From a virus, in the IMG/VR virus record IMGVR_UViG_3300037107_000031, positions 1 through 23,776 of that record: DNA of 23,776 nt. One strand, written 5' to 3'. Each line of letters opens with the position of its first letter. Position 1 is the first letter of the stretch. The position numbers and the translations under genes are program-made. This document shows, in pieces, positions 4,053 to 23,159 of this stretch. The notes beneath the pieces were generated by a model. The model had not been told where the DNA came from. It made no database searches and saw nothing but the letters and a program-made list of their open reading frames with translations.

Positions 4053-4444
4053 AGTGCCGCAAGCTCATCAAGCAGGGCGATGGGACGTGGAATGTGGCGG
4101 GCGGTCACGGTCTCAACAGTTACCTGACAGGCGACCCGGCAATCGAGCAATCCGTTTCGTGCGAGCTTCAACTCGTCCTCGGCGAATGGTTCCTCGACGT
4201 TACCCGCGGCATCCCATGGTATGCGCAGCCCAATTCAACCACGACGCCCATCATGGGAGTATTCCCAGCTGACCTCGCCCGCGCGGAATCGCTCATCAAG
4301 GCGGCCATCTTGAGTGTGCCGGGTGTCAACTCGCTGACCGCATTCTCGCTCACCTTCAACCACACAACCCGCGCGGCGACCTGCACCGCGAGCGGAGTCA
4401 CAGAGAATAGCGGCACCTTCGCCGTATCGGGGTCTTTGCCATGA
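4049..4444 (+). CDS. Baseplate wedge protein, gp25-like
   Basis: 131 residues. Central helices and the phrase LVLGEWFLDVTRGIPWY (residues 43-59), followed by a spacer and a long helix leading to LSVPGVNSL (about residues 88-96), resemble the T4 gp25 / P2 gpW wedge family, where a 'G.F.d...GiP' segment and a late 'PGV..i' turn are typical. The family links the sheath to the wedge proteins and starts sheath assembly. Placement between spike and baseplate J protein agrees with this. Both ends overlap neighbours by 4 nt (ATGA at 4049 and 4441). The N-terminal Cys in the CRK motif has no assigned role. Confidence 0.62.
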   Translation: MKCRKLIKQGDGTWNVAGGHGLNSYLTGDPAIEQSVSCELQLVLGEWFLDVTRGIPWYAQPNSTTTPIMGVFPADLARAESLIKAAILSVPGVNSLTAFSLTFNHTTRAATCTASGVTENSGTFAVSGSLP

Positions 4445-5724
4445 GCTTGCTGAATTCCCAATTGACTGCCTCGGGCTTCGTCAGAACGTCGCTCTCGAAC
4501 ATCGTGAGTGCGCTCAACACCATCTGGCAGGGAGCCTTTGGGGCAGACGCAGACATCGATCCGCGCTCGGCCGATGGCAACATCATCGGATCGATCGCCG
4601 AGATGTTCGACGACCTGAACGGTATCGCAGGCGACACGCTAAACCTTGCGAACCCCAACGGCGCCACTAGCAACATGCTGGCGAATCTCGCCTACCTGAC
4701 CGGCATTACAAAGAATGGCGCCAGCTTCCCATCTGCGCCTTGCACATTCACGGGCACGCCGACCACCGTTGTCCCCTACACGTTCACGGTAAAGAGCACG
4801 GTCGATGGTACGTCATGGATGCCGCCGCAGTCTCCCGCCGCTCAGTATGTGATTGGAAGCGGTGGAACCGTGACGGGCTCGCTCATCTGCACTACCATCG
4901 GACCGCTTGTCAGCGGAGGCCCAGCGCCCGCAGCGACCCTCACCCAGATCGTCACCATCACCGCTGGCATCGCATCCGTGACCAACACGGTGGGTATTCC
5001 CGGCGCGGTCGTTGAGGGAGATCCAAACCTGCGCATTCGGCGCCAGAACGCGACGGCCATTGCATCGCAAGCTATGACCGACGGCATGCAGGCGGCGATC
5101 CAGGCGCTTCCTGGCGTCGTCAATGCGGTGGTGTGGGAAAACAACCTCGGCTCCCCTGTGACCATCGGAACCGGCGGGAGCAACGTCATCAACGCGAACA
5201 CGGTGCGGGCTATCGTGCAAGTCACGCCGCTGGGATCGGCTGACCCTTCCACCACGGGATCAGGCAATGACCCAATTGCCAACCTGCTTTGGACCCTCAA
5301 GGGAAACGCCTGCAACACGCAGGGGGCATGGTCTAAGTACCCACTGGACAACGTGGGCAACTCTCACTTAATCCAGTACGACACCGCGCAAGCCTTGGCG
5401 ACTTCCGTTCGGATCAACATTGCCCCACGCTCGAACTTCCCAACCGATGGGATTGCGCAAATCAAGCAGGCCGTGAGCAACTGGGGAGCAGGGGTCGACG
5501 CGACCACGGGGCGTCCCAACATCCAGATCAGCGGGGACGACAAAGGCACGCTGTCTTGGACCGATGTGCTTTCCTCTTTCGTGGCAACCATTCCGGGCTT
5601 CGACTTCCTCGACATGGAATTCTCCAACCCCGTCCTAGGAGGGTGGACCACGTCACCGCAGAGCATGCAAGTTCCCTTCGGGTATTTCGTCGCCATCTCA
5701 AGCGTAACGGTGAACGGAGCCTAG
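4441..5724 (+). CDS. Baseplate wedge protein, baseplate J-like (T4 gp6-like)
   Basis: 427 residues. It starts with a short helical region containing an 'IWQGAFGADADIDPRSADG' stretch and a helical NIIGSIAEMFDDLNG segment, characteristic of baseplate J family openings. It continues with a beta-rich middle (strands around FTGTPTTVVPYTF) and the family's hallmark: VEGDPNLRIRRQNA near residues 193-206, followed by a helix and LPGVVNAVVWEN. A C-terminal helical/beta domain holds LSSFVATIPGF. The family forms the wedge ring that reorganises during contraction. The presence of this gene with a gp25-like and spike gene makes a contractile tail the best reading. It overlaps the wedge gene by 4 nt and lies 1 nt before the next gene. 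Confidence 0.82.
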   Translation: MSLLNSQLTASGFVRTSLSNIVSALNTIWQGAFGADADIDPRSADGNIIGSIAEMFDDLNGIAGDTLNLANPNGATSNMLANLAYLTGITKNGASFPSAPCTFTGTPTTVVPYTFTVKSTVDGTSWMPPQSPAAQYVIGSGGTVTGSLICTTIGPLVSGGPAPAATLTQIVTITAGIASVTNTVGIPGAVVEGDPNLRIRRQNATAIASQAMTDGMQAAIQALPGVVNAVVWENNLGSPVTIGTGGSNVINANTVRAIVQVTPLGSADPSTTGSGNDPIANLLWTLKGNACNTQGAWSKYPLDNVGNSHLIQYDTAQALATSVRINIAPRSNFPTDGIAQIKQAVSNWGAGVDATTGRPNIQISGDDKGTLSWTDVLSSFVATIPGFDFLDMEFSNPVLGGWTTSPQSMQVPFGYFVAISSVTVNGA

Positions 5725-9926: not shown

Positions 9927-12058
9927 TGAAAAAGAAGATCCTTGCTATCGTGGTCTTGGCCCTCGTGGCCGTCGGGATGTCCGGGCCTGCCCTCAGCGCG
10001 TGGTCGATGTTCTGCCCGCTGGACTCGACGGGGAAGGTGTCGATCACCTATCTGCCCACCGGCACCACGTCCAGCACCGTCGCAGTCGGAAACGACTCGC
10101 GCCTCAGCGACGCCCGCACGCCAACGGCCCACGCCTCGACCCACATCTCGACGGGCAGCGACCCCATCGCCGCAGCGGTAGCCGGCGGGGCAAGCGGGTT
10201 GCTGACCGGAGCGCAGGCAACGCTGCTGGGCAACACCTCGGGCACCAACTCGGGCGACGAGACGGCGGCGTCCATCGAAAGCAAACTGTCGGTCTCCTCG
10301 GGCAACGTGACCGCGCTTGGCAACCTATCGGGGACCAACACCGGCGACCAGACGCTCCCCACCGACGCGACCATCGCCACGACCAACGTCGTGACCAACA
10401 ACGCATCGACCACCAAGCACGGTTGGCTACTCCAGGCCACGGCCCCACCTTCTGGCAGCCTCAACGTCTGCGGAATCGCCAACGGCGAGACGGCCTGGAG
10501 CAACAAGACGATCATCGGTACGACCACGCCGTCAACACAGGCGTTCGGCGATTCCGCAAGTCACGGTGCATCGGTCGAAGCGGCGGCGGCAGACCACAAG
10601 CACGCGATGCCAGCGGCCCCCACTGCGTCAAGCGTGGGCCTAGGCAGCGTCACCAACGCGGCACAGACCCTCGCCAGCGTCGTGCCCAACACGGCGCCAT
10701 CGTCCGGTCAAATCCTCGTCGGGAACGCAGGCGGCACCGCCTACGCGCCCGTCGCAATGAGCGCGGACGCCACCATGGCGAACACCGGCGCGCTCACCAT
10801 CGCGGCCGGTGCCGTCACATTGGCCAAGCACGCAAACCTTGCCGCAAACTCAATCATCGGCAACAACACCGTCAGTCCGGCCACACCGCTGGCGCTCACG
10901 GTGGCGCAGACTCAAGTGCTGCTCAGCGTCCAGCCCAGAGGCTACACCACCACAGCGATGGTCGGCACGACCACGACGCTCACCTCGGCCAGCACGCGCT
11001 TGCAGATATTTACCGGCTCGGGCGCAACAGCGCAGACCGTAGTGCTGCCCGATGCCACGACGCTGCCATTCGCCGACACCGAGTATGAATTCGACAATGC
11101 CACTACCGGCACCGGCAATCTCACGTTGCAGACCAACGGAGGCGCAACCCTCTATGTTTTCGGGCCGGGCGGGGGCGGACGAGTCGTCCTACTCACCAAG
11201 ATCGTGGCGGCGGGCACGTGGGACAACGACGCCTACAACCCGAACCCGGCGAGCGGAAAGGTGCTCAACGTAAGCAACAGCATCACGCTGGCGGGAACCG
11301 ACGGAACTACGGTCACGTTTCCAGGCTCCAACACCACCGTTCCACAGGCTTCGTTTCTCGTCACCATCGCGGGGCTGACGGCGGGACGCACAGTCACCCT
11401 GCCGGATGCGGCTACGACCGTCCCGACCATCACGCAACCGCTCACATTCTTAGGCCCAACAGCGGCCCGCACGATCACTCTGCCCGATGCGGCATTCACG
11501 GTCGCGCGCACCGACGCCGCAAACACCTTCACCGGCGTTCAGACGATGTCATCCCCCGCGCTCACAACGCCAACGATTGGCGGCGTCACCACCACGGGCG
11601 TCACCGGGACGAGTGGAAAGATCGTGCTCGACCAGACCCCCACGCTTGTCACACCTGTGATCGGCGCTGCCACCGGGACATCCCTCACGGTGACGGGCGC
11701 TGTCCTCTCCAGCGGCGGCGGACACGGATACAGCACAGGCGCGGGCGGAACCGTTTCGCAAGGTTCCAGCCGGACCACCGGCGTCACCCTTTCGAAGCTC
11801 TGCGGCCAAATCACATTGTTCACGACGACCCTTGCGGCGGTCACGTCGCAGGCGTTTGTCGTGACCAACACCTTCGTCGCGGCGACCGATATGGTCATCG
11901 TCCAGCACGCCAGCGGCGGCACCCTCGGGCTCTACAACATCGCCGTCACCCCGGCGGCTGGTTCATTCACGATCACGATTCGCAACAACTCGGCATCAGT
12001 CTCGCCGAGCGAGGCCCCAGTGCTGCAATTCGTGGTCATCAAGGCGGTAACATCATGA
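9926..12058 (+). CDS. Fibre-like protein with N-terminal Sec signal peptide
   Basis: 710 residues. The ATG at 9926 overlaps the previous TGA and is preferred to the longer frame, whose extension lies inside the preceding gene. It opens with a textbook Sec signal: three lysines, a hydrophobic core at residues 5-20, then a PALSA cleavage site near residue 25. The mature part is Thr/Ala/Gly-rich and clearly fibre-like. It has the phage fibre phrase DSRLSDARTPTAHA (residues 57-70), two versions of 'G..SGTN.GD.T' (near 105 and 135), an 'AADHKHAMPA' element, and repeated 'TLPDA' turns between about 480 and 540. Fibre proteins normally assemble in the cytoplasm, so the signal is odd. The end overlaps the next gene by 4 nt. 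Confidence 0.7.
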   Translation: MKKKILAIVVLALVAVGMSGPALSAWSMFCPLDSTGKVSITYLPTGTTSSTVAVGNDSRLSDARTPTAHASTHISTGSDPIAAAVAGGASGLLTGAQATLLGNTSGTNSGDETAASIESKLSVSSGNVTALGNLSGTNTGDQTLPTDATIATTNVVTNNASTTKHGWLLQATAPPSGSLNVCGIANGETAWSNKTIIGTTTPSTQAFGDSASHGASVEAAAADHKHAMPAAPTASSVGLGSVTNAAQTLASVVPNTAPSSGQILVGNAGGTAYAPVAMSADATMANTGALTIAAGAVTLAKHANLAANSIIGNNTVSPATPLALTVAQTQVLLSVQPRGYTTTAMVGTTTTLTSASTRLQIFTGSGATAQTVVLPDATTLPFADTEYEFDNATTGTGNLTLQTNGGATLYVFGPGGGGRVVLLTKIVAAGTWDNDAYNPNPASGKVLNVSNSITLAGTDGTTVTFPGSNTTVPQASFLVTIAGLTAGRTVTLPDAATTVPTITQPLTFLGPTAARTITLPDAAFTVARTDAANTFTGVQTMSSPALTTPTIGGVTTTGVTGTSGKIVLDQTPTLVTPVIGAATGTSLTVTGAVLSSGGGHGYSTGAGGTVSQGSSRTTGVTLSKLCGQITLFTTTLAAVTSQAFVVTNTFVAATDMVIVQHASGGTLGLYNIAVTPAAGSFTITIRNNSASVSPSEAPVLQFVVIKAVTS

Positions 12059-15000
12059 TCCGAACCCGCGCCATCTTCCTCGGCATCTTCATCGCCTCGC
12101 TGGCATTCCCCGCGTGGGCCGTCACCACAACCGAGGGCACCGACGGCACCATCGGCGTGTCCGGTGCTGCACAGAAGGACCTTTCGCGGGTCAGCGCAGC
12201 CCACGTGAGCGGCCAGACGTTCTGCTCGCAGGCCGCGCGCGGGGCGGTCGTCAATCTCCCGGGTGGCTCGGTCATCACGCTCGATGCGTGTTCGACCAGC
12301 ACGCTGTCGACGACAGACGTGATACCGCCGCCGCTCTATTTCCTTCCTGGTAGCCTCACCGGGACCGGCACGATCACCGCCACGGCCACGGCCGGAACCT
12401 CGACCAACACGAGCACCTACACCGTCACAGCCACCGCAACCGGCACCGGAACCAGCGCGGGGACCGGAACTGTCACCGGAACGCAGACCGTTTCCGGTAC
12501 AGCGAGCGCGACCGCCAGCGGGACCCACTCGTGGACGGGCACCGTTACTGGTATTGGCACCGGTGTCAGCACCACGACCGAGACAAATGTCAGCGTTGGA
12601 AACGCGAGCGCGGCGTCCGGAATGCTTTCAATCGGATCGAGCGGCCAAACAAAATTCAATCCTGCGGGGTCGTTGTCGCTAGCGCAAGTGATTGCCGGAA
12701 GCGCCGTGACGTTGGGTGCCGATGGGCTGGGGTTCAACAAGGACGGCGGAAACACCTTTGGCTCGGCCTATGGCTACGCTGGGCTGCTATCATTTGCACC
12801 GTCAGTTGGTCTGTTTTCATTTGGAATTTCAACTGCGCCTGGGACGCCAGGTACCAGTTATTCTGGCGTTGGCAACACTCGATTCACTATTTGCCCAACA
12901 GGTCTGTCTATCTCAATCGGGTATTCCTTGTGCAACTCCAACCTGTTGAACATCGGATCGGGGGGCACCTTTCCCGCTGGCTTCGATGCTGTTGGAAATG
13001 TCTTCGCCCCGAACATCAGCGCCACTCCAGGTACGGCTAGCGTAGCTGCGGTTAGCGACGGCAGCGGAACACTCAATGGCTGGGTCACGCACGCGAGCGG
13101 CGACGTGCCGACCTCGCGCAACGTCTCGACCACCAACGGCCTTCAAGGCGGCGGCGATTTGTCGGCAGACCGCACGCTCTCACCAGTCTACGGCACGACC
13201 GCCAACACGATCATGCAGGGGAATACGACCCATCTCCCGGGTGATGTCGCGACGTCGACCATCAGCGGGACCAACGTCACCGTCGATATGTCGGCTGGCA
13301 CCATTACGGCCACGCACGCGAGCACATCAGCGGCGGTCGTGGTGCTTCCCAACGCAACGAAAACCCTCACGGGCACGCAGACCATCACCGCAACCGACAT
13401 CGGCACGACCACCCCAGGAACCGGCGTCGTCCCCGTCACGACAGCAAACAACCTCAACAACTGGGTCACCTCCGCCCCGGCCAACGCCATCGTCGCCACC
13501 GGCGCCAACGTCGCCATCAACGCGACCGCCCCGACCGGCGCAAACCAGGTGCTCATCACCACCGACACCACACACGCGACCTGGCAGACTCCAGCGGCCG
13601 GCGTGCCGACCTCGCGCAACGTCTCGACCACCAACGGCCTTCAAGGCGGCGGCGATTTGTCGGCAGACCGCACGCTCTCACCAGTCTACGGCACGACCGC
13701 CAACACGATCATGCAGGGGAATACGACCCATCTCCCGGGTGATGTCGCGACGTCGACCATCAGCGGGACCAACGTCACCGTCGATATGTCGGCTGGCACC
13801 ATTACGGCCACGCACGCGAGCACATCAGCGGCGGTCGTGGTGCTTCCCAACGCAACGAAAACCCTCACGGGCACGCAGACCATCACCGCAACCGACATCG
13901 GCACGACCACCCCAGGAACCGGCGTCGTCCCCGTCACGACAGCAAACAACCTCAACAACTGGGTCACCTCCGCCCCGGCCAACGCCATCGTCGCCACCGG
14001 CGCCAACGTCGCCATCAACGCGACCGCCCCGACCGGCGCAAACCAGGTGCTCATCACCACCGACACCACACACGCGACCTGGCAGACTCCAGCGGCCGGC
14101 GTGACCCTCGCGACCACAACCCCAGCAGCACTCACCTACGGCGGAGCGGGCGCAGTCGGGACCGGCACGACAGCCGCCAAGTCCGACCACGTGCACCCGC
14201 TCGCTCAGATTACGTCGGCGCAGGTGACGGGCGCTCTCGGCTACACTCCAGTTAGCAGCGGCGCTGGAACTGTAGGAGCGCTAGCCAAGTATTCCGGAGC
14301 AAATGCAATCGTCCCGTCCTTTGGCATCAGCGCCACTCCAGGTACGGCTAGCGTGGCTGCCGTCTCAGACGGCAGCGGGACGCTCAACAGCTGGATCACT
14401 GGCGCCGGGGTCACAACCGCACTCGGCTACACTCCATTGTCTGGGAGCGGTACCACTGGCGGAATAGCAAAGTACACCGGGTCTAACACCCTGGCGTCAT
14501 CATTTGGCATTAGCGCCACTCCAGGTACGGCTAGCGTAGCTGCGGTTAGCGACGGCAGCGGAACACTCAATGGCTGGGTCACGCACGCGAGCGGCGACGT
14601 GATTCAAGGCGCGACTGGAGTAGCCGGCGCGCTGGCGCTGTTCTCCGGGGCGCAGACAATTGGCCCGAGCTTCGGCATCAGCGCGACGCCAGGAACAGCA
14701 AGCGTGGCAGCCGTCAGCGACGTCTCCGGCACCCTCAACGGCTGGGTGACGAAGCATGTGCAAAGCATAACAACGTACACAGGGCCACCGTCGAACTGGT
14801 CCACATCAGGGGGTTCGCCTCTCACTGTAATTGGCCAGGGAGTGTCAGCGAGCAGCTCTACTGGGTCTCTGTCCATCGCGGCAATAACGAACGTATCGAC
14901 AACTGCAACGCTAAACTCGTGCGTTGTGACCTTGTATGTCAATGGCGCGCAAGTAGGAGTCCAATCAGTCAGTAATGCGGGTGTAGCCGCAGTTCCATCC

Positions 15001-15126
15001 GCTGGGACAGCCACATTCTCAGGTGGAGGCTACACGATTGCAGTGACAATCACTTCGATCGGAGCTTACTCCTGCGGGACGCAGGCTGGTCTGACTCAGA
15101 TCATCGTCACGGAGTACAGCAATTGA
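12055..15126 (+). CDS. Giant repetitive fibre-like protein with signal peptide
   Basis: 1023 residues, starting at the ATG in the ATGA overlap with the previous gene. Residues 1-22 form a second clear Sec signal ending in FPAWA. Residues 100-170 are a Thr/Gly/Ser/Ala low-complexity tract. Residues 170-345 are a separate beta-rich domain. Residues 351-516 and 517-682 are an exact 166-residue duplication. After that come two ALGYTP motifs, frequent in phage fibres, and several copies of the phrase ISATPGTASVAAVSD (near residues 322, 760, 820 and 876). The last 120 residues form a more complex beta domain with two Cys and are the likely binding tip. It is the last gene before the strand switch. 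Function as an adhesin or fibre is inferred; location is unclear because of the signal. Confidence 0.7.
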   Translation: MIRTRAIFLGIFIASLAFPAWAVTTTEGTDGTIGVSGAAQKDLSRVSAAHVSGQTFCSQAARGAVVNLPGGSVITLDACSTSTLSTTDVIPPPLYFLPGSLTGTGTITATATAGTSTNTSTYTVTATATGTGTSAGTGTVTGTQTVSGTASATASGTHSWTGTVTGIGTGVSTTTETNVSVGNASAASGMLSIGSSGQTKFNPAGSLSLAQVIAGSAVTLGADGLGFNKDGGNTFGSAYGYAGLLSFAPSVGLFSFGISTAPGTPGTSYSGVGNTRFTICPTGLSISIGYSLCNSNLLNIGSGGTFPAGFDAVGNVFAPNISATPGTASVAAVSDGSGTLNGWVTHASGDVPTSRNVSTTNGLQGGGDLSADRTLSPVYGTTANTIMQGNTTHLPGDVATSTISGTNVTVDMSAGTITATHASTSAAVVVLPNATKTLTGTQTITATDIGTTTPGTGVVPVTTANNLNNWVTSAPANAIVATGANVAINATAPTGANQVLITTDTTHATWQTPAAGVPTSRNVSTTNGLQGGGDLSADRTLSPVYGTTANTIMQGNTTHLPGDVATSTISGTNVTVDMSAGTITATHASTSAAVVVLPNATKTLTGTQTITATDIGTTTPGTGVVPVTTANNLNNWVTSAPANAIVATGANVAINATAPTGANQVLITTDTTHATWQTPAAGVTLATTTPAALTYGGAGAVGTGTTAAKSDHVHPLAQITSAQVTGALGYTPVSSGAGTVGALAKYSGANAIVPSFGISATPGTASVAAVSDGSGTLNSWITGAGVTTALGYTPLSGSGTTGGIAKYTGSNTLASSFGISATPGTASVAAVSDGSGTLNGWVTHASGDVIQGATGVAGALALFSGAQTIGPSFGISATPGTASVAAVSDVSGTLNGWVTKHVQSITTYTGPPSNWSTSGGSPLTVIGQGVSASSSTGSLSIAAITNVSTTATLNSCVVTLYVNGAQVGVQSVSNAGVAAVPSAGTATFSGGGYTIAVTITSIGAYSCGTQAGLTQIIVTEYSN
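13018..13107 (+). repeat. 90-bp direct repeat, copy 1
   Basis: This stretch encodes the ISATPGTASVAAVSD phrase and the following GWVTHASGDV. It recurs base for base at 14512-14601. It directly precedes the 498-bp tandem unit and overlaps its first bases. Confidence 0.9.
13105..14100 (+). repeat. Perfect 498-bp tandem duplication (two copies)
   Basis: Copies at 13105-13602 and 13603-14100. I compared them line by line and found no difference. The period is a multiple of three, so the frame is kept and each copy encodes 166 residues from PTSRNV to TPAAGV. Zero silent changes imply a very recent duplication, active homogenisation, or an assembly artefact. Confidence 0.95.
14512..14601 (+). repeat. 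90-bp direct repeat, copy 2
   Basis: Identical to 13018-13107. The distance between the copies is 1494 bp, exactly three times the 498-bp tandem period. Two more divergent versions of the same protein phrase lie around 14330-14400 and 14675-14750, so the region is a family of shuffled modules. Confidence 0.9.
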
Positions 15127-18692: not shown

Positions 18693-19526
18693 ATGGAACG
18701 AAAACATCTAGGATGGCATAAGCCGACACTTGAGCAGCAGGTCCGCGCACTTCGTACAGCGCAGCCGGAGGCTAGCAATTCTGACCTGTTCACCGTGAAG
18801 GCAACTGGCTACGCCGCCATCCCGCGCACGTCGCTACCCTCTCCGGTGCTCAACCAGTTGAACTGCGGATCCTGTACAGCCAACGCCTGGGCGCTTGCAC
18901 TCTACGTCGCCATGGTCAAGCAAGGCATCCCGGCGTTCGTCGCCGCTCGCTTGGCCATCTACTACGGCGAGCGTGCCCTTGAAGGATCAACGGCGGTAGA
19001 CGCAGGGGCTGCCATCGCCGACGGTGCTGCATTCCTGGCAAGCTACGGCGTGCCCAAGGAAAGCGACTGGCCCTACGACGTTTCAAAGTTCGCAGTGGCG
19101 CCCGGCCCGACGGTGTCGCGCGACGCCTACGACGGGCGCGGCAAGGTGAAGGTAAACTATCACCCGATTTCCTCGACGGGTAAGCAGCTGATCGCTGACA
19201 TAGGCGACTCGGTGGCGAGCGGATTTGTTCCCGTATTCGGCTGCTCGGTTACCGATGCCTTTTGCTCGTCGCAACCGAACGGGACTATTCACGCGCCCAC
19301 GAGCAACGACCAGATAGCCGGTGGACACGCCGAAGGAATCGTTGCGTTCGACCCGGACAACGAGAGCGTGATCGTTCAGAACAGCTGGGGTCCGGATTGG
19401 GGGGACTCAGACCCAGCGTTGCCTCGTGGATGCTGGCGCATGGGCTTTGACTACCTGACATCGCCAAGTTACGGGGCGTCCGACATCTGGATCATTTCGT
19501 CGCTGCCACAAGGAGTTGGAAATTGA
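18693..19526 (+). CDS. Papain-like cysteine peptidase (family C1)
   Basis: 277 residues. The C1 signature is complete: Gln55 for the oxyanion hole, catalytic Cys61 in CGSC, His212 in AGGHAEGIVAFD, and Asn230 in VQNSWGPDWG. Typical secondary motifs are also present: 'DAGAAIADGAAFLASYGVP' and an EsDWPYD phrase near 123-129. In papain Trp follows the catalytic Cys; here it is Thr62. There is no signal peptide and only a short N-terminal region of about 45 residues before the core, so no large propeptide. Place between holin and hydrolases. Possible roles: processing a phage or host protein during late infection or lysis, or virion-associated activity. The family is certain, the substrate unknown. 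It ends in TTGA overlap with the lipoprotein gene. Confidence 0.9.
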   Translation: MERKHLGWHKPTLEQQVRALRTAQPEASNSDLFTVKATGYAAIPRTSLPSPVLNQLNCGSCTANAWALALYVAMVKQGIPAFVAARLAIYYGERALEGSTAVDAGAAIADGAAFLASYGVPKESDWPYDVSKFAVAPGPTVSRDAYDGRGKVKVNYHPISSTGKQLIADIGDSVASGFVPVFGCSVTDAFCSSQPNGTIHAPTSNDQIAGGHAEGIVAFDPDNESVIVQNSWGPDWGDSDPALPRGCWRMGFDYLTSPSYGASDIWIISSLPQGVGN

Positions 19527-19783: not shown

Positions 19784-19917
19784 GCCGTCGTGACGCCGAC
19801 ACCAGCGAGCCAACGCAACCGCAAGAGTCGCCCCCGGCGACGTCGGCGTGGCAGAGGGCTATCGAGCTGGCGAAGCGGCTGCGCGGGCAGGACAAGGAGG
19901 GGCGGGAATGCGCCTGA
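19780..19917 (+). CDS. 45-residue polar protein
   Basis: Starts at the ATG overlapping the lipoprotein stop by 4 nt. The product is rich in Ser/Pro/Glu/Gln in the first half and has a basic helix at the end (AIELAKRLRGQDKEG). No membrane segment. The end overlaps the start of the transglycosylase gene by 10 bases, and its final codons carry the AGGAGG ribosome site of that gene. It may exist mainly to couple translation. No family recognised. Confidence 0.45.
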   Translation: MSRRDADTSEPTQPQESPPATSAWQRAIELAKRLRGQDKEGRECA

Positions 19918-20420
19918 CCGTCGCTCTCCTGCTGGCCGGCCTGCTCCTTTGCTGCTACGGCAGTCGCGCGCGTGCCGACGTTGCGGAACTTGCGCTTCGC
20001 CGAATGTGCGGCCCCTCGGCGGTTCGGCTTGCGCCGCTCGTGCGGGCCGAGGCGCGGCGGAACCTGTCCGACGTGCGGCTTGTGGCCATCATCTTCACCG
20101 AATCGGGCTGCCATCCCGATCGCGTAAATCTCACCACCGGCGCCGTCGGCTTGCTCGGCATCATGCCGGGGCGAAGCGCGGACCCTGACCGTCTTGAAGC
20201 CGCTCAGCTTTTGGACCCGGCGACGAATCTCCACCTTGGGGCAAGCCACATGCTCAGGCTAATAAGCCTCTGCGGCTCGTTCGCGGGGGCTGCGCACGTG
20301 TACCACAGCAAGGACGGCAAGTGCCGAAACTGGCGCGGCGATGCCTACGTGGCTCGTCTGTTGCGGATGGAGCGAGATTTCCTGCGCTGGTTGCGCGGCG
20401 AAGAAGCGAGGGTGTCATGA
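19908..20420 (+). CDS. Secreted SLT-type lytic transglycosylase
   Basis: 170 residues from ATG 19908, with AGGAGG 8 nt upstream. A signal peptide covers residues 1-23 (basic start, Leu-rich core, RARA site); the CC pair in the core is not a good lipobox. The SLT fold is recognisable: catalytic Glu65 in FTESGCHPDRV, then the glycine motif GAVGLLGIMPG at 78-88, then N107-L-H-L-G with a following helix, and a late HVYHSKDGKC. It should cut peptidoglycan glycan strands in the periplasm. Having its own signal peptide means it can be exported without the holin. Upstream and downstream overlaps show it is co-translated with tiny neighbours. Confidence 0.85.
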   Translation: MRLTVALLLAGLLLCCYGSRARADVAELALRRMCGPSAVRLAPLVRAEARRNLSDVRLVAIIFTESGCHPDRVNLTTGAVGLLGIMPGRSADPDRLEAAQLLDPATNLHLGASHMLRLISLCGSFAGAAHVYHSKDGKCRNWRGDAYVARLLRMERDFLRWLRGEEARVS

Positions 20421-21103: not shown

Positions 21104-21679
21104 ATGGACATCGGTGACTATTTCGACGATCTCGAGACCCACGAAGGTTGTACGAGCTGGCTCTACTGCGACGTGCGCGGCTTCGTGACGGTGGGTATCG
21201 GCAATCTCGTTGCAAGCGCTGACGCCGCGAAGGCGTGCCCGTTCGTCCATAGGGACACCAACGCGTGGGCCACCGACGACGAAAAGGCCGCCGGGTGGCA
21301 GACGATCAAGGACGCCTTCGACGCCACGAAGTCTGCCGCTTTCTACGCAGGGAAATGCGACTTGCGCTTGGCGCTCGACTACGTCAAGTCGCTGGTCAGT
21401 ACGAGACTCGCGAACGAGTTCATCCCTGGACTAGTTCGACTCTGCCCGCAGTTCTCGACGTTCCCCTTGCCGGCCAGGCGCGCCCTCGTGGACATGGCGT
21501 ACAACCTCGGCGTGCATGGGCTCGGGATGTTCCCGCACATGCTCGCGGCGTGCAACGCTGGCGACTGGGCCATGGCGGCGGGGCAGTGCCACCGGAGTTC
21601 TTGCAGAGATACGAGAAACGCATGGACCGCACAATGTTTCATCGACGCCGAAGTGGCCACGCCGGGCCCGACGTCTTGA
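21104..21679 (+). CDS. Endolysin, GH24 lysozyme (T4-like)
   Basis: 191 residues from ATG 21104, chosen for AAGGGG about 10 nt upstream and because the catalytic domain starts right there. A TTG at 20984 in the same frame, overlapping the nuclease stop, would add 40 residues; this is the alternative. The T4 lysozyme triad is present: Glu14 in ETHEG, Asp23 in YCDVRG, Thr29 in FVTVGIGN. An insertion of about 60 residues follows (40-100). The late 'PLPARRALVDMAYNLGVHGL' segment also matches the family. No signal peptide in the ATG form, so it needs the holin to reach the cell wall. The C-terminus from residue 155 is Cys/Arg-rich and less like the family. Confidence 0.82.
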   Translation: MDIGDYFDDLETHEGCTSWLYCDVRGFVTVGIGNLVASADAAKACPFVHRDTNAWATDDEKAAGWQTIKDAFDATKSAAFYAGKCDLRLALDYVKSLVSTRLANEFIPGLVRLCPQFSTFPLPARRALVDMAYNLGVHGLGMFPHMLAACNAGDWAMAAGQCHRSSCRDTRNAWTAQCFIDAEVATPGPTS

Positions 21680-21825: not shown

Positions 21826-22008
21826 ATGAGCATCGTTGGCCTGATTTTGGTGTTGGTGATCGCTGGCGTCGTGTTGGCCTACGTGCCGATGGACGGGCGC
21901 GTGAAGACGATCATCATCGTCGTCTTGGCACTGGTGACGTGCGGATGGCTCATGAACTACTTCGGCCTCTGGGGGTATTTGCAGGCAGGGCCGCATCGGG
22001 GACGATAG
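21826..22008 (+). CDS. Small two-helix membrane protein (Thivi_2564-like)
   Basis: 60 residues with an AGAAGG ribosome site. Two hydrophobic helices (about 3-20 and 28-48) are separated by a short loop with VPMDGRVKT. The loop motif followed by II.VV resembles the Thivi_2564 small membrane protein family known from phages and bacteria. A role as holin or antiholin is plausible after an endolysin gene. A gap of 146 bp separates it from the endolysin; I see no gene there. Nothing overlaps on the right side, where the gene-free stretch begins. Confidence 0.65.
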   Translation: MSIVGLILVLVIAGVVLAYVPMDGRVKTIIIVVLALVTCGWLMNYFGLWGYLQAGPHRGR

Positions 22009-22026
22009 GTCGCTCCCGACAAAAGA

Positions 22027-22056
22027 AACCCCGGTTGACTTTCGTCCGCCGGGGTT
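22027..22056 (-). terminator. Hairpin with T-rich exit on the minus strand
   Basis: AACCCCGG (22027-22034) pairs with CCGGGGTT (22049-22056). Read on the minus strand the stem is followed by TCTTTTGTC, as in an intrinsic terminator. On the + strand only CCACACTC follows, so it is not a good terminator for the lysis operon. It may end minus-strand transcripts entering from the right, or be the 5' part of the structured element described next. Confidence 0.55.
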
Positions 22057-22059
22057 CCA

Positions 22060-22500
22060 CACTCTCGGTTGCTGAGACCTTATGGGAAACGTACCATCGT
22101 TACCATGCTCGCGCAAGCGGGCCATGCAAGGCGCCCTGACTGGCGCTGTTGGATCGCATCCGTGCGCCAGGTCTGCGCACAACGTCGGCGGACGAAATGG
22201 GTCACTGACTCGGAGGTACGATGCTGGAGGCTCTGCGCATGGTCGCGCGGCTACCTGGCACGAGACCGGGCTGAACTGCATAACCGTTGGTCTGAATGAT
22301 TGGCTCCAGGGTGTACGGGAACCCGGAGAAGACACGGTCGGGTCGCCTAAACAAGCGGCCCCGGTGCAGGCGGATACGGGAAGCAAGAACGTCGCGGCTC
22401 AACAAGTCCATCTGAGCCGAGTGGTCCGAGCTGACCGCCCGATATTGGGATCTCACCAGTCCACCTAGTCTGCACTCGCAGATCTACAGGATGGATGGCT
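22060..22500 (+). ncRNA. Candidate structured non-coding RNA region
   Basis: No frame here gives a convincing protein, yet local hairpins follow each other almost without gaps. They include 22085-22104 (AACG/CGTT plus GG/CC), 22107-22122 (6 bp around a GCAA tetraloop), 22130-22147, 22162-22180 (GTGCGC/GCGCAC), 22263-22293 (AGACC/GGTCT), 22306-22326, 22340-22361 (7 bp), 22395-22419 (CGGCTCA/TGAGCCG), 22421-22438 (6 bp) and 22448-22485. Several stems contain G-T pairs on the + strand, which would be A-C mismatches on the other strand, so the + strand is favoured. No tRNA, tmRNA or RNase P signature is seen. Length and phage setting resemble the large ornate phage RNAs (GOLLD, ROOL), but I cannot match it to one. 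No clear promoter or end. Confidence 0.5.
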
Positions 22501-22678
22501 CTGGGGCCCGTGTACCTAGCGCATGACGCGGTTTTATTGAAAGACGCAACTTGCGCCTATCACCACGTAGCGTTACCGAACGATTCCCGCACCTTACATC
22601 GCCCGCGCTGAGTCAAAGCCACGTGCTGTTCGCATGTGCAGTATTGCAGAAATACCATTCCCCATGCACACTGGGATC
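22501..22678. other. Gene-free stretch upstream of lipoprotein
   Basis: I see no credible gene here. A short GCG/CGC stem followed by GGTTTTATT (about 22519-22536) might be a weak + strand terminator for the RNA candidate. CGCAA/TTGCG lies at 22545-22555. No convincing promoter for the lipoprotein gene was found. Confidence 0.4.
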
Positions 22679-23107
22679 ATGCGAACAACAATCACGATTC
22701 TTTCGGTGTTTTTTCTCGGCTGCGAAACCAATACGGCTGGGCTGCGGGACTCTCCCGACGCCGGCACGACGCCGGACGCGCAGCCTGCCCCTGACCTGCG
22801 TCCGGAACCGCAACCAGACGCGCGTGCCGCGGGCGTGTCGGACACCGGCGCAGAAACTGCGGAGGGCCCGGAGGCTGGGCCGGAAGCTGCGCCCGACACG
22901 CAACCGACAGCGGAGTGCCTACAGGCGATGAAGTGCTGCGTGGGAGTGAAGAACGAGTGGGACTGCCGAGACCTCTACATCACGACCTTCACCCCCATGG
23001 ACTGTTGCGCCTATGCGTACTTCCAGGCCAATTCGACGAACGTGCCCCATTGCTCGCCAGAGCTGGTGACGATGTCTGGGTGTGGCGCGGGCGTCCCTGC
23101 CTTTTAG
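22679..23107 (+). CDS. Lipoprotein with Pro/Asp linker and Cys-rich domain
   Basis: 142 residues from ATG 22679, chosen because the type II signal starts there; an in-frame ATG 45 nt earlier would add a non-signal extension. Lipobox FLGC with lipidated Cys15. Residues 20-90 are a disordered Pro/Asp/Ala/Glu linker with repeated PDA/PD steps, typical of surface lipoproteins in Myxococcota and relatives. The C-terminal 50 residues carry eight cysteines, including two CC pairs, and aromatic residues (AYAYF). It probably sits on the cell surface or in the periplasm. In a phage region it may be a moron that alters the host surface. The ribosome site is weak. No family recognised. Confidence 0.72.
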   Translation: MRTTITILSVFFLGCETNTAGLRDSPDAGTTPDAQPAPDLRPEPQPDARAAGVSDTGAETAEGPEAGPEAAPDTQPTAECLQAMKCCVGVKNEWDCRDLYITTFTPMDCCAYAYFQANSTNVPHCSPELVTMSGCGAGVPAF

Positions 23108-23159
23108 TCTTGCGGAAATACTGCGGGCGGTGGTACAACGCGAAGCGGAGGAACTGAAC

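Follow-up and report, generated by a model that had tools for sequence, protein, structure and literature searches.

A candidate new class of large structured non-coding RNA beside the lysis genes of a contractile-tailed phage

What is encoded between the lysis genes and a lipoprotein gene of this phage, in a stretch (22009-22630) where no protein is recognisable? The window analysed here, i.e., the whole stretch of DNA under study, corresponds to a 23,776-base virus record of IMG/VR. By gene content it belongs to a contractile-tailed phage, with fibre-like long genes extending to ~15 kb and the following landmarks:

4441-5724: baseplate J protein
18693-19526: papain-like (papain-family) cysteine protease, among lysis and tail genes
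19848-20420: lytic transglycosylase
21104-21679: phage lysozyme
21826-22008: small membrane protein
22024-22530, + strand: proposed large structured non-coding RNA, ~507 nt
start near 22634-22694, + strand (the strand of the RNA): putative lipoprotein gene

The preliminary description had proposed a large structured phage RNA at 22060-22500, read from the + strand and devoid of any credible protein. We consider it very probable that a real, new, structured non-coding RNA is encoded here. The non-coding structured stretch was confirmed and its size revised, the element being slightly larger (~22024-22530), with ends placed by conservation and structure and not as mapped transcript ends. Its definition rests on alignment A2, consensus-fold tests, pair counts and the conservation profile against the copy L010, and no promoter or terminator consensus was found at either end. 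Elsewhere in the window, the long fibre-like frame 11218-15126 contains two identical 300-base copies, 498 bases apart, at 13101-13898, which may reflect a recent duplication or may have arisen in assembly.

Three further contigs, all of them in IMG/VR, carry a homologous stretch. In G003 (81 kb), found by a DNA-pattern scan, the copy (L010) is 84% identical to the window and has the same neighbours, being preceded by the gene of a similar small membrane protein and followed by that of a lipoprotein. In G004 (19.7 kb), the copy (L011) is 71% identical and lies after another lipoprotein gene; a Mu-type portal is encoded on this contig, and the G004 phage at least is therefore Mu-like. The third copy (L004) belongs to G002, a related phage whose endolysin is 94% identical to that of the window; it is 73-74% identical, matches only the 3' domain (22208-22542) and sits at a different genome place, among tail genes. 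The element is hence found in three gene contexts: between lysis genes and a lipoprotein gene (window and G003), after a lipoprotein gene (G004) and among tail genes (G002). The four copies form two sister pairs, the window with L010 (84% identical) and L011 with L004 (83%). Beyond these copies and L119, a partial copy that a contig end truncates in a nearly identical relative of G002, no homologue was recovered by repeated DNA-pattern scans of IMG/VR, by a single pattern scan across 85,000 genomes of bacteria and archaea, by blastn against phage and plasmid records, or by nhmmer and a covariance model run over all fetched loci. In these collections the RNA family is rare.

Between the window and L010, identity per 50 bases is 78-98% over 22081-22430 and 38-60% in most of the flanking coding sequence, which implies that the RNA is constrained more strongly than the adjoining genes. 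Conservation falls to 46-52% at 22531-22630. Two short islands are also common to the window and G003: GTGCAGTATTGCAGAAATACCATTC (22634-22663), which stands before the lipoprotein gene and is shared despite diverged surroundings, and the related TTGCGGAAATACTGCGG (23100-23125), which precedes the next gene. Their appearance is that of a repeated element with a regulatory or promoter role. Regarding the lipoproteins themselves, they give the impression of being myxobacterial in style; no relative was found with the lipoprotein as scan query, and a host search in three genomes reached via DNA-pattern matches gave no convincing match.

Does this conserved stretch fold? Taken alone, the window sequence has a minimum free energy of -173.8, to be compared with -172.5 +/- 6.7 in dinucleotide shuffles (z -0.19), a test with little power for a GC-rich RNA of 440 nt. 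The hairpins seen in this one sequence thus do not exceed chance expectation. The preliminary description had named this lack of excess folding energy as grounds for abandoning its proposal, as it had the presence of a homologous protein across the stretch; the former is what we found, and it is outweighed by covariation. Indeed, the RNAalifold consensus energy of the four copies, compared with column-shuffled alignments, has a z of -6.3. For the three full-length copies the + strand scores -5.2 and the - strand -2.05, which agrees with the strand first proposed, and the bias holds for the 5' part alone (-5.4 and -2.8) as well as for the 3' part alone (-4.5 and -1.85) in these three copies.

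The model comprises 109 pairs (helices H0 and H2-H16 plus a pseudoknot), counted on alignment A2, with 96.5% of cells paired. In this alignment of four rows, one of them truncated, that fall into two sister pairs, 21 of the 109 pairs are altered on both sides, whereas shuffles give 10.4 +/- 2.2, none of 500 reaches 21, and controls made by shifting the 3' partners one to three columns have 1-5 double-changed pairs; since the model was derived from and tuned on the same alignment, these controls compensate partly and not wholly. Covarying pairs in homologues, whose absence the preliminary description had also named as grounds against its proposal, were recovered. Many helices are invariant and simply consistent with the model, because the four copies form two sister pairs. 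The principal elements, all on the + strand, are the following:

22027-22056: 5' hairpin H0, its position shared by the three full copies, two covarying pairs
22107-22122: hairpin H2, with an invariant GCAA loop
22130-22147: hairpin H3, with an invariant CTGACT loop and one covarying pair
22162-22180: hairpin H5, two covarying pairs (T-A to G-C and G-C to C-G)
22209-22213 with 22266-22270: helix H7, two covarying pairs (three by a looser rule)
22229-22252: hairpin H8, enclosed by H7
22271-22373: multi-branch core H9-H12, from pair counts and covariance model R1
22271-22281 with 22364-22373: core helix H9
22283-22293 with 22330-22338: H10, one double change (T-A to G-C) in L004
22305-22311 with 22322-22327: H11, whose loop supplies the 5' strand of the pseudoknot
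22340-22346 with 22355-22361: core helix H12
22394-22420: hairpin H14, with five of its seven pairs covarying
22424-22432 with 22497-22507: helix H15, closing the 3' domain
22312-22318 (H11 loop) with 22508-22514: pseudoknot, five of its seven pairs double-changed

The four hairpins named in the preliminary description, at 22107-22122 (GCAA loop), 22162-22180 (6 bp), 22340-22361 (7 bp, one T-G) and 22395-22419, exist at those coordinates and are all part of this model, the last as the stem included in H14. In H2, pairing is kept through T-G to C-G and G-C to G-U changes. Outside H14 and the pseudoknot, double-changed pairs number one or two each in H7, H5, H0, H3, H8, H10, H11 and H16; of all helices H0 is the least secure, with 83-92% of its cells pairing. 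Pseudoknot pair 22317-22509 is G-C in both the window and L011, but L010 and L004 have A-U there, and as these two copies come from different sister pairs the switch occurred at least twice. Run with default settings, RNAalifold closed the 3' domain by a long-range helix without pseudoknot, between 22311-22321 and the 3' end. This alternative was set aside as it crosses the double-changed helices H10 and H11; its long-range pairing is retained in our model as the pseudoknot. The invariant TCCA of the H14 loop (22407-22410) is complementary to the TGGA in the invariant GATGGATGG (22490-22495), and their pairing, suggested by this complementarity and invariant in the alignment, is a possible second tertiary contact. 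As read from the aligned sequences, the locus is a conserved non-coding RNA of the + strand with roughly 18 helices and a pseudoknot joining a hairpin loop and the 3' tail.

An RNA placed before a gene may also be a control element of that gene, and we weighed whether a riboswitch-like 5' leader acts in cis on the downstream lipoprotein gene. In the window and in G003 the lipoprotein gene does follow the RNA on the same strand, but more than 100 poorly conserved bases lie between them, the lipoprotein gene is located upstream in G004, a tail-region gene follows in G002, and no known riboswitch model of Rfam matches. A riboswitch would hold a constant position upstream of the gene it regulates and this RNA does not, so that we regard a cis-acting leader as improbable. 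Action in trans is likelier than the control of one neighbour because the genomic positions change.

The G002 copy raises another possibility, namely that the window carries, as an orphan, the guide RNA (omega-RNA, reRNA) belonging to an IS605 TnpB nuclease. Precedents exist for structured reRNAs adjoining tnpB, RAGATH-18 being one (PMC11061315). In G002, the RNA stretch begins ~12 bases past the stop of a TnpB gene (OrfB_IS605, Cas12f1-like TNB domains), which places this gene directly before the homologous stretch. The likeness to TnpB omega-RNAs and RAGATH-18-derived reRNAs, namely a structured RNA beside tnpB, is however confined to one of the four contigs, the RNAs of the window, G003 and G004 having no adjoining tnpB. 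IS605 elements (tnpA and tnpB), 87% identical in DNA, are located at L007 7179-8847 (G002) and at L122 18404-19664 (G004), and both copies share their left edge at TGAC; in G004 the tnpB copy runs off the contig end and the sequence following it is not visible. As a family, IS605 elements insert beside a motif of this type and have a terminal hairpin. In G002, the right end of the element contains the hairpin CCCCTACC...GGTAGGGG and, ending in GTTGTCAC, closes before the RNA starts. The junction can be placed in the window:

22206-22210, + strand: TGAC/T, target-adjacent motif and IS junction of the G002 copy (junction at the slash)

The uninterrupted RNA of the window and of G003 reads TGAC/TCGGAGG precisely where the G002 copy resumes. 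Since the edge of the element coincides with TGAC in the intact RNA, the IS was inserted into the RNA gene. The RNA hence lies outside the IS, whose right end GTTGTCAC precedes it, and it extends ~180 nt 5' of the IS junction, whereas the scaffold of an omega-RNA lies within the IS and stops, with its 3' end, at the right end, beyond which comes the guide. A guide-RNA origin is accordingly very unlikely, and both a TnpB omega-RNA and an IS605-derived mini-element were dropped, L010 and L011 being full-length without tnpB and the IS edge lying at TGAC. The 5' half of the RNA was sought elsewhere in G002 and not found; it was probably lost through later recombination. The broken copy in this relative points to an RNA that the phage can do without, or to a 3' domain able to function on its own.

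Finally, a short gene for a 128-aa protein (22082-22468, + strand, overlapping the RNA), whose nucleotide constraint would mimic structure, is scarcely credible: this sole long + frame is open in the three full copies and partly in the fourth and, oddly, ends at the identical aligned position in all of them despite three different stops (TAG, TAG, TAA, TGA), but it has no Pfam, PHROG or tblastn match, as foreseen in the preliminary description, its third-position GC is ~0.59 (0.69-0.84 in neighbouring genes), and a protein would leave the 21 covarying pairs unexplained. Substitutions at the three codon positions number 36/39/32 between the window and L011, 11/17/18 between the window and L010 and 7/18/14 between L011 and L004, with no third-position excess and with other frames looking equally constrained. 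The frame is judged not to be a gene because substitutions are spread evenly over codon positions.

To what class does this non-coding RNA belong? No model of Rfam 15 matched in a cmscan of the whole window at the gathering threshold. Likewise, cmscan of 21900-22800 and 22020-22540 (E<=10) and of L004, L010 and L011 (E<=2) returned no Rfam match, GOLLD and ROOL included, and the models of group I and group II introns and other Rfam ribozymes found no match. With ARAGORN, neither the window nor the fetched segments of related phages gave a tRNA. GOLLD, which is frequently but not universally found near tRNA genes, forms a homo-14-mer RNA cage, and ROOL (Rumen-Originating, Ornate, Large) forms an RNA nanocage. 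Like GOLLD, the present RNA is phage- or prophage-encoded and large, with many helices, a conserved 3' domain and a less conserved 5' region; unlike GOLLD, it is ~500 nt long (often >800 nt in GOLLD), has no Rfam match and has no nearby tRNA genes. It shares with ROOL a phage origin, a similar length class and a pseudoknot, and differs from it by the lack of an Rfam match and of a tRNA island. Only in 2025 were GOLLD, ROOL and OLE shown to form RNA-only assemblies, the solved ROOL being a 659-nt RNA that has pseudoknots and no known protein partner (PMC12286853). GOLLD expression increases during lysis (PMC12286853), and the present RNA adjoins lysis genes in two of the four contigs.

Hundreds of nucleotides long, non-coding, phage-encoded, with a covariation-supported fold and a pseudoknot, the RNA answers to the loose description of a large ornate phage RNA. 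It is similar in kind to GOLLD and ROOL and a member of neither, as judged by Rfam match, the only membership test available. Of the two outcomes that had been envisaged, membership in GOLLD or ROOL is contradicted by the absence of an Rfam match in the four copies, and a new class is supported. Among the large ornate phage RNAs, it is most suitably treated as a new class.

What might such an RNA do? Positions 22024-22530 (+ strand) of the window would encode a trans-acting non-coding phage RNA of ~500 nt, of a class absent from Rfam. From its context, it may be transcribed together with the late (lysis) genes, and it would fold as a single compact multi-domain particle. By analogy with the self-assembly of GOLLD and ROOL, it may act as an object, assembling with itself or with protein. 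It behaves like an accessory cargo gene, occupying differing places in related phages and being broken by IS605 in one copy. A late particle acting in trans is a mechanism that we put forward tentatively, as a possibility drawn from this analogy. Stated in full, as a new large phage RNA class without sequence relationship to GOLLD or ROOL that forms a homo-oligomeric or RNA-protein particle late in the infection by Mu-like phages, the proposal is rather unlikely to hold in every part.

As few classes of large ornate phage RNAs have been described, another independent one would point to a repeated emergence of such RNAs in phages. Whether self-assembly is a property that these RNAs share, and what purpose it serves, could moreover be studied conveniently on the RNA described here, given its length of ~500 nt, its separable 3' domain and the naturally disrupted copy in a related phage.
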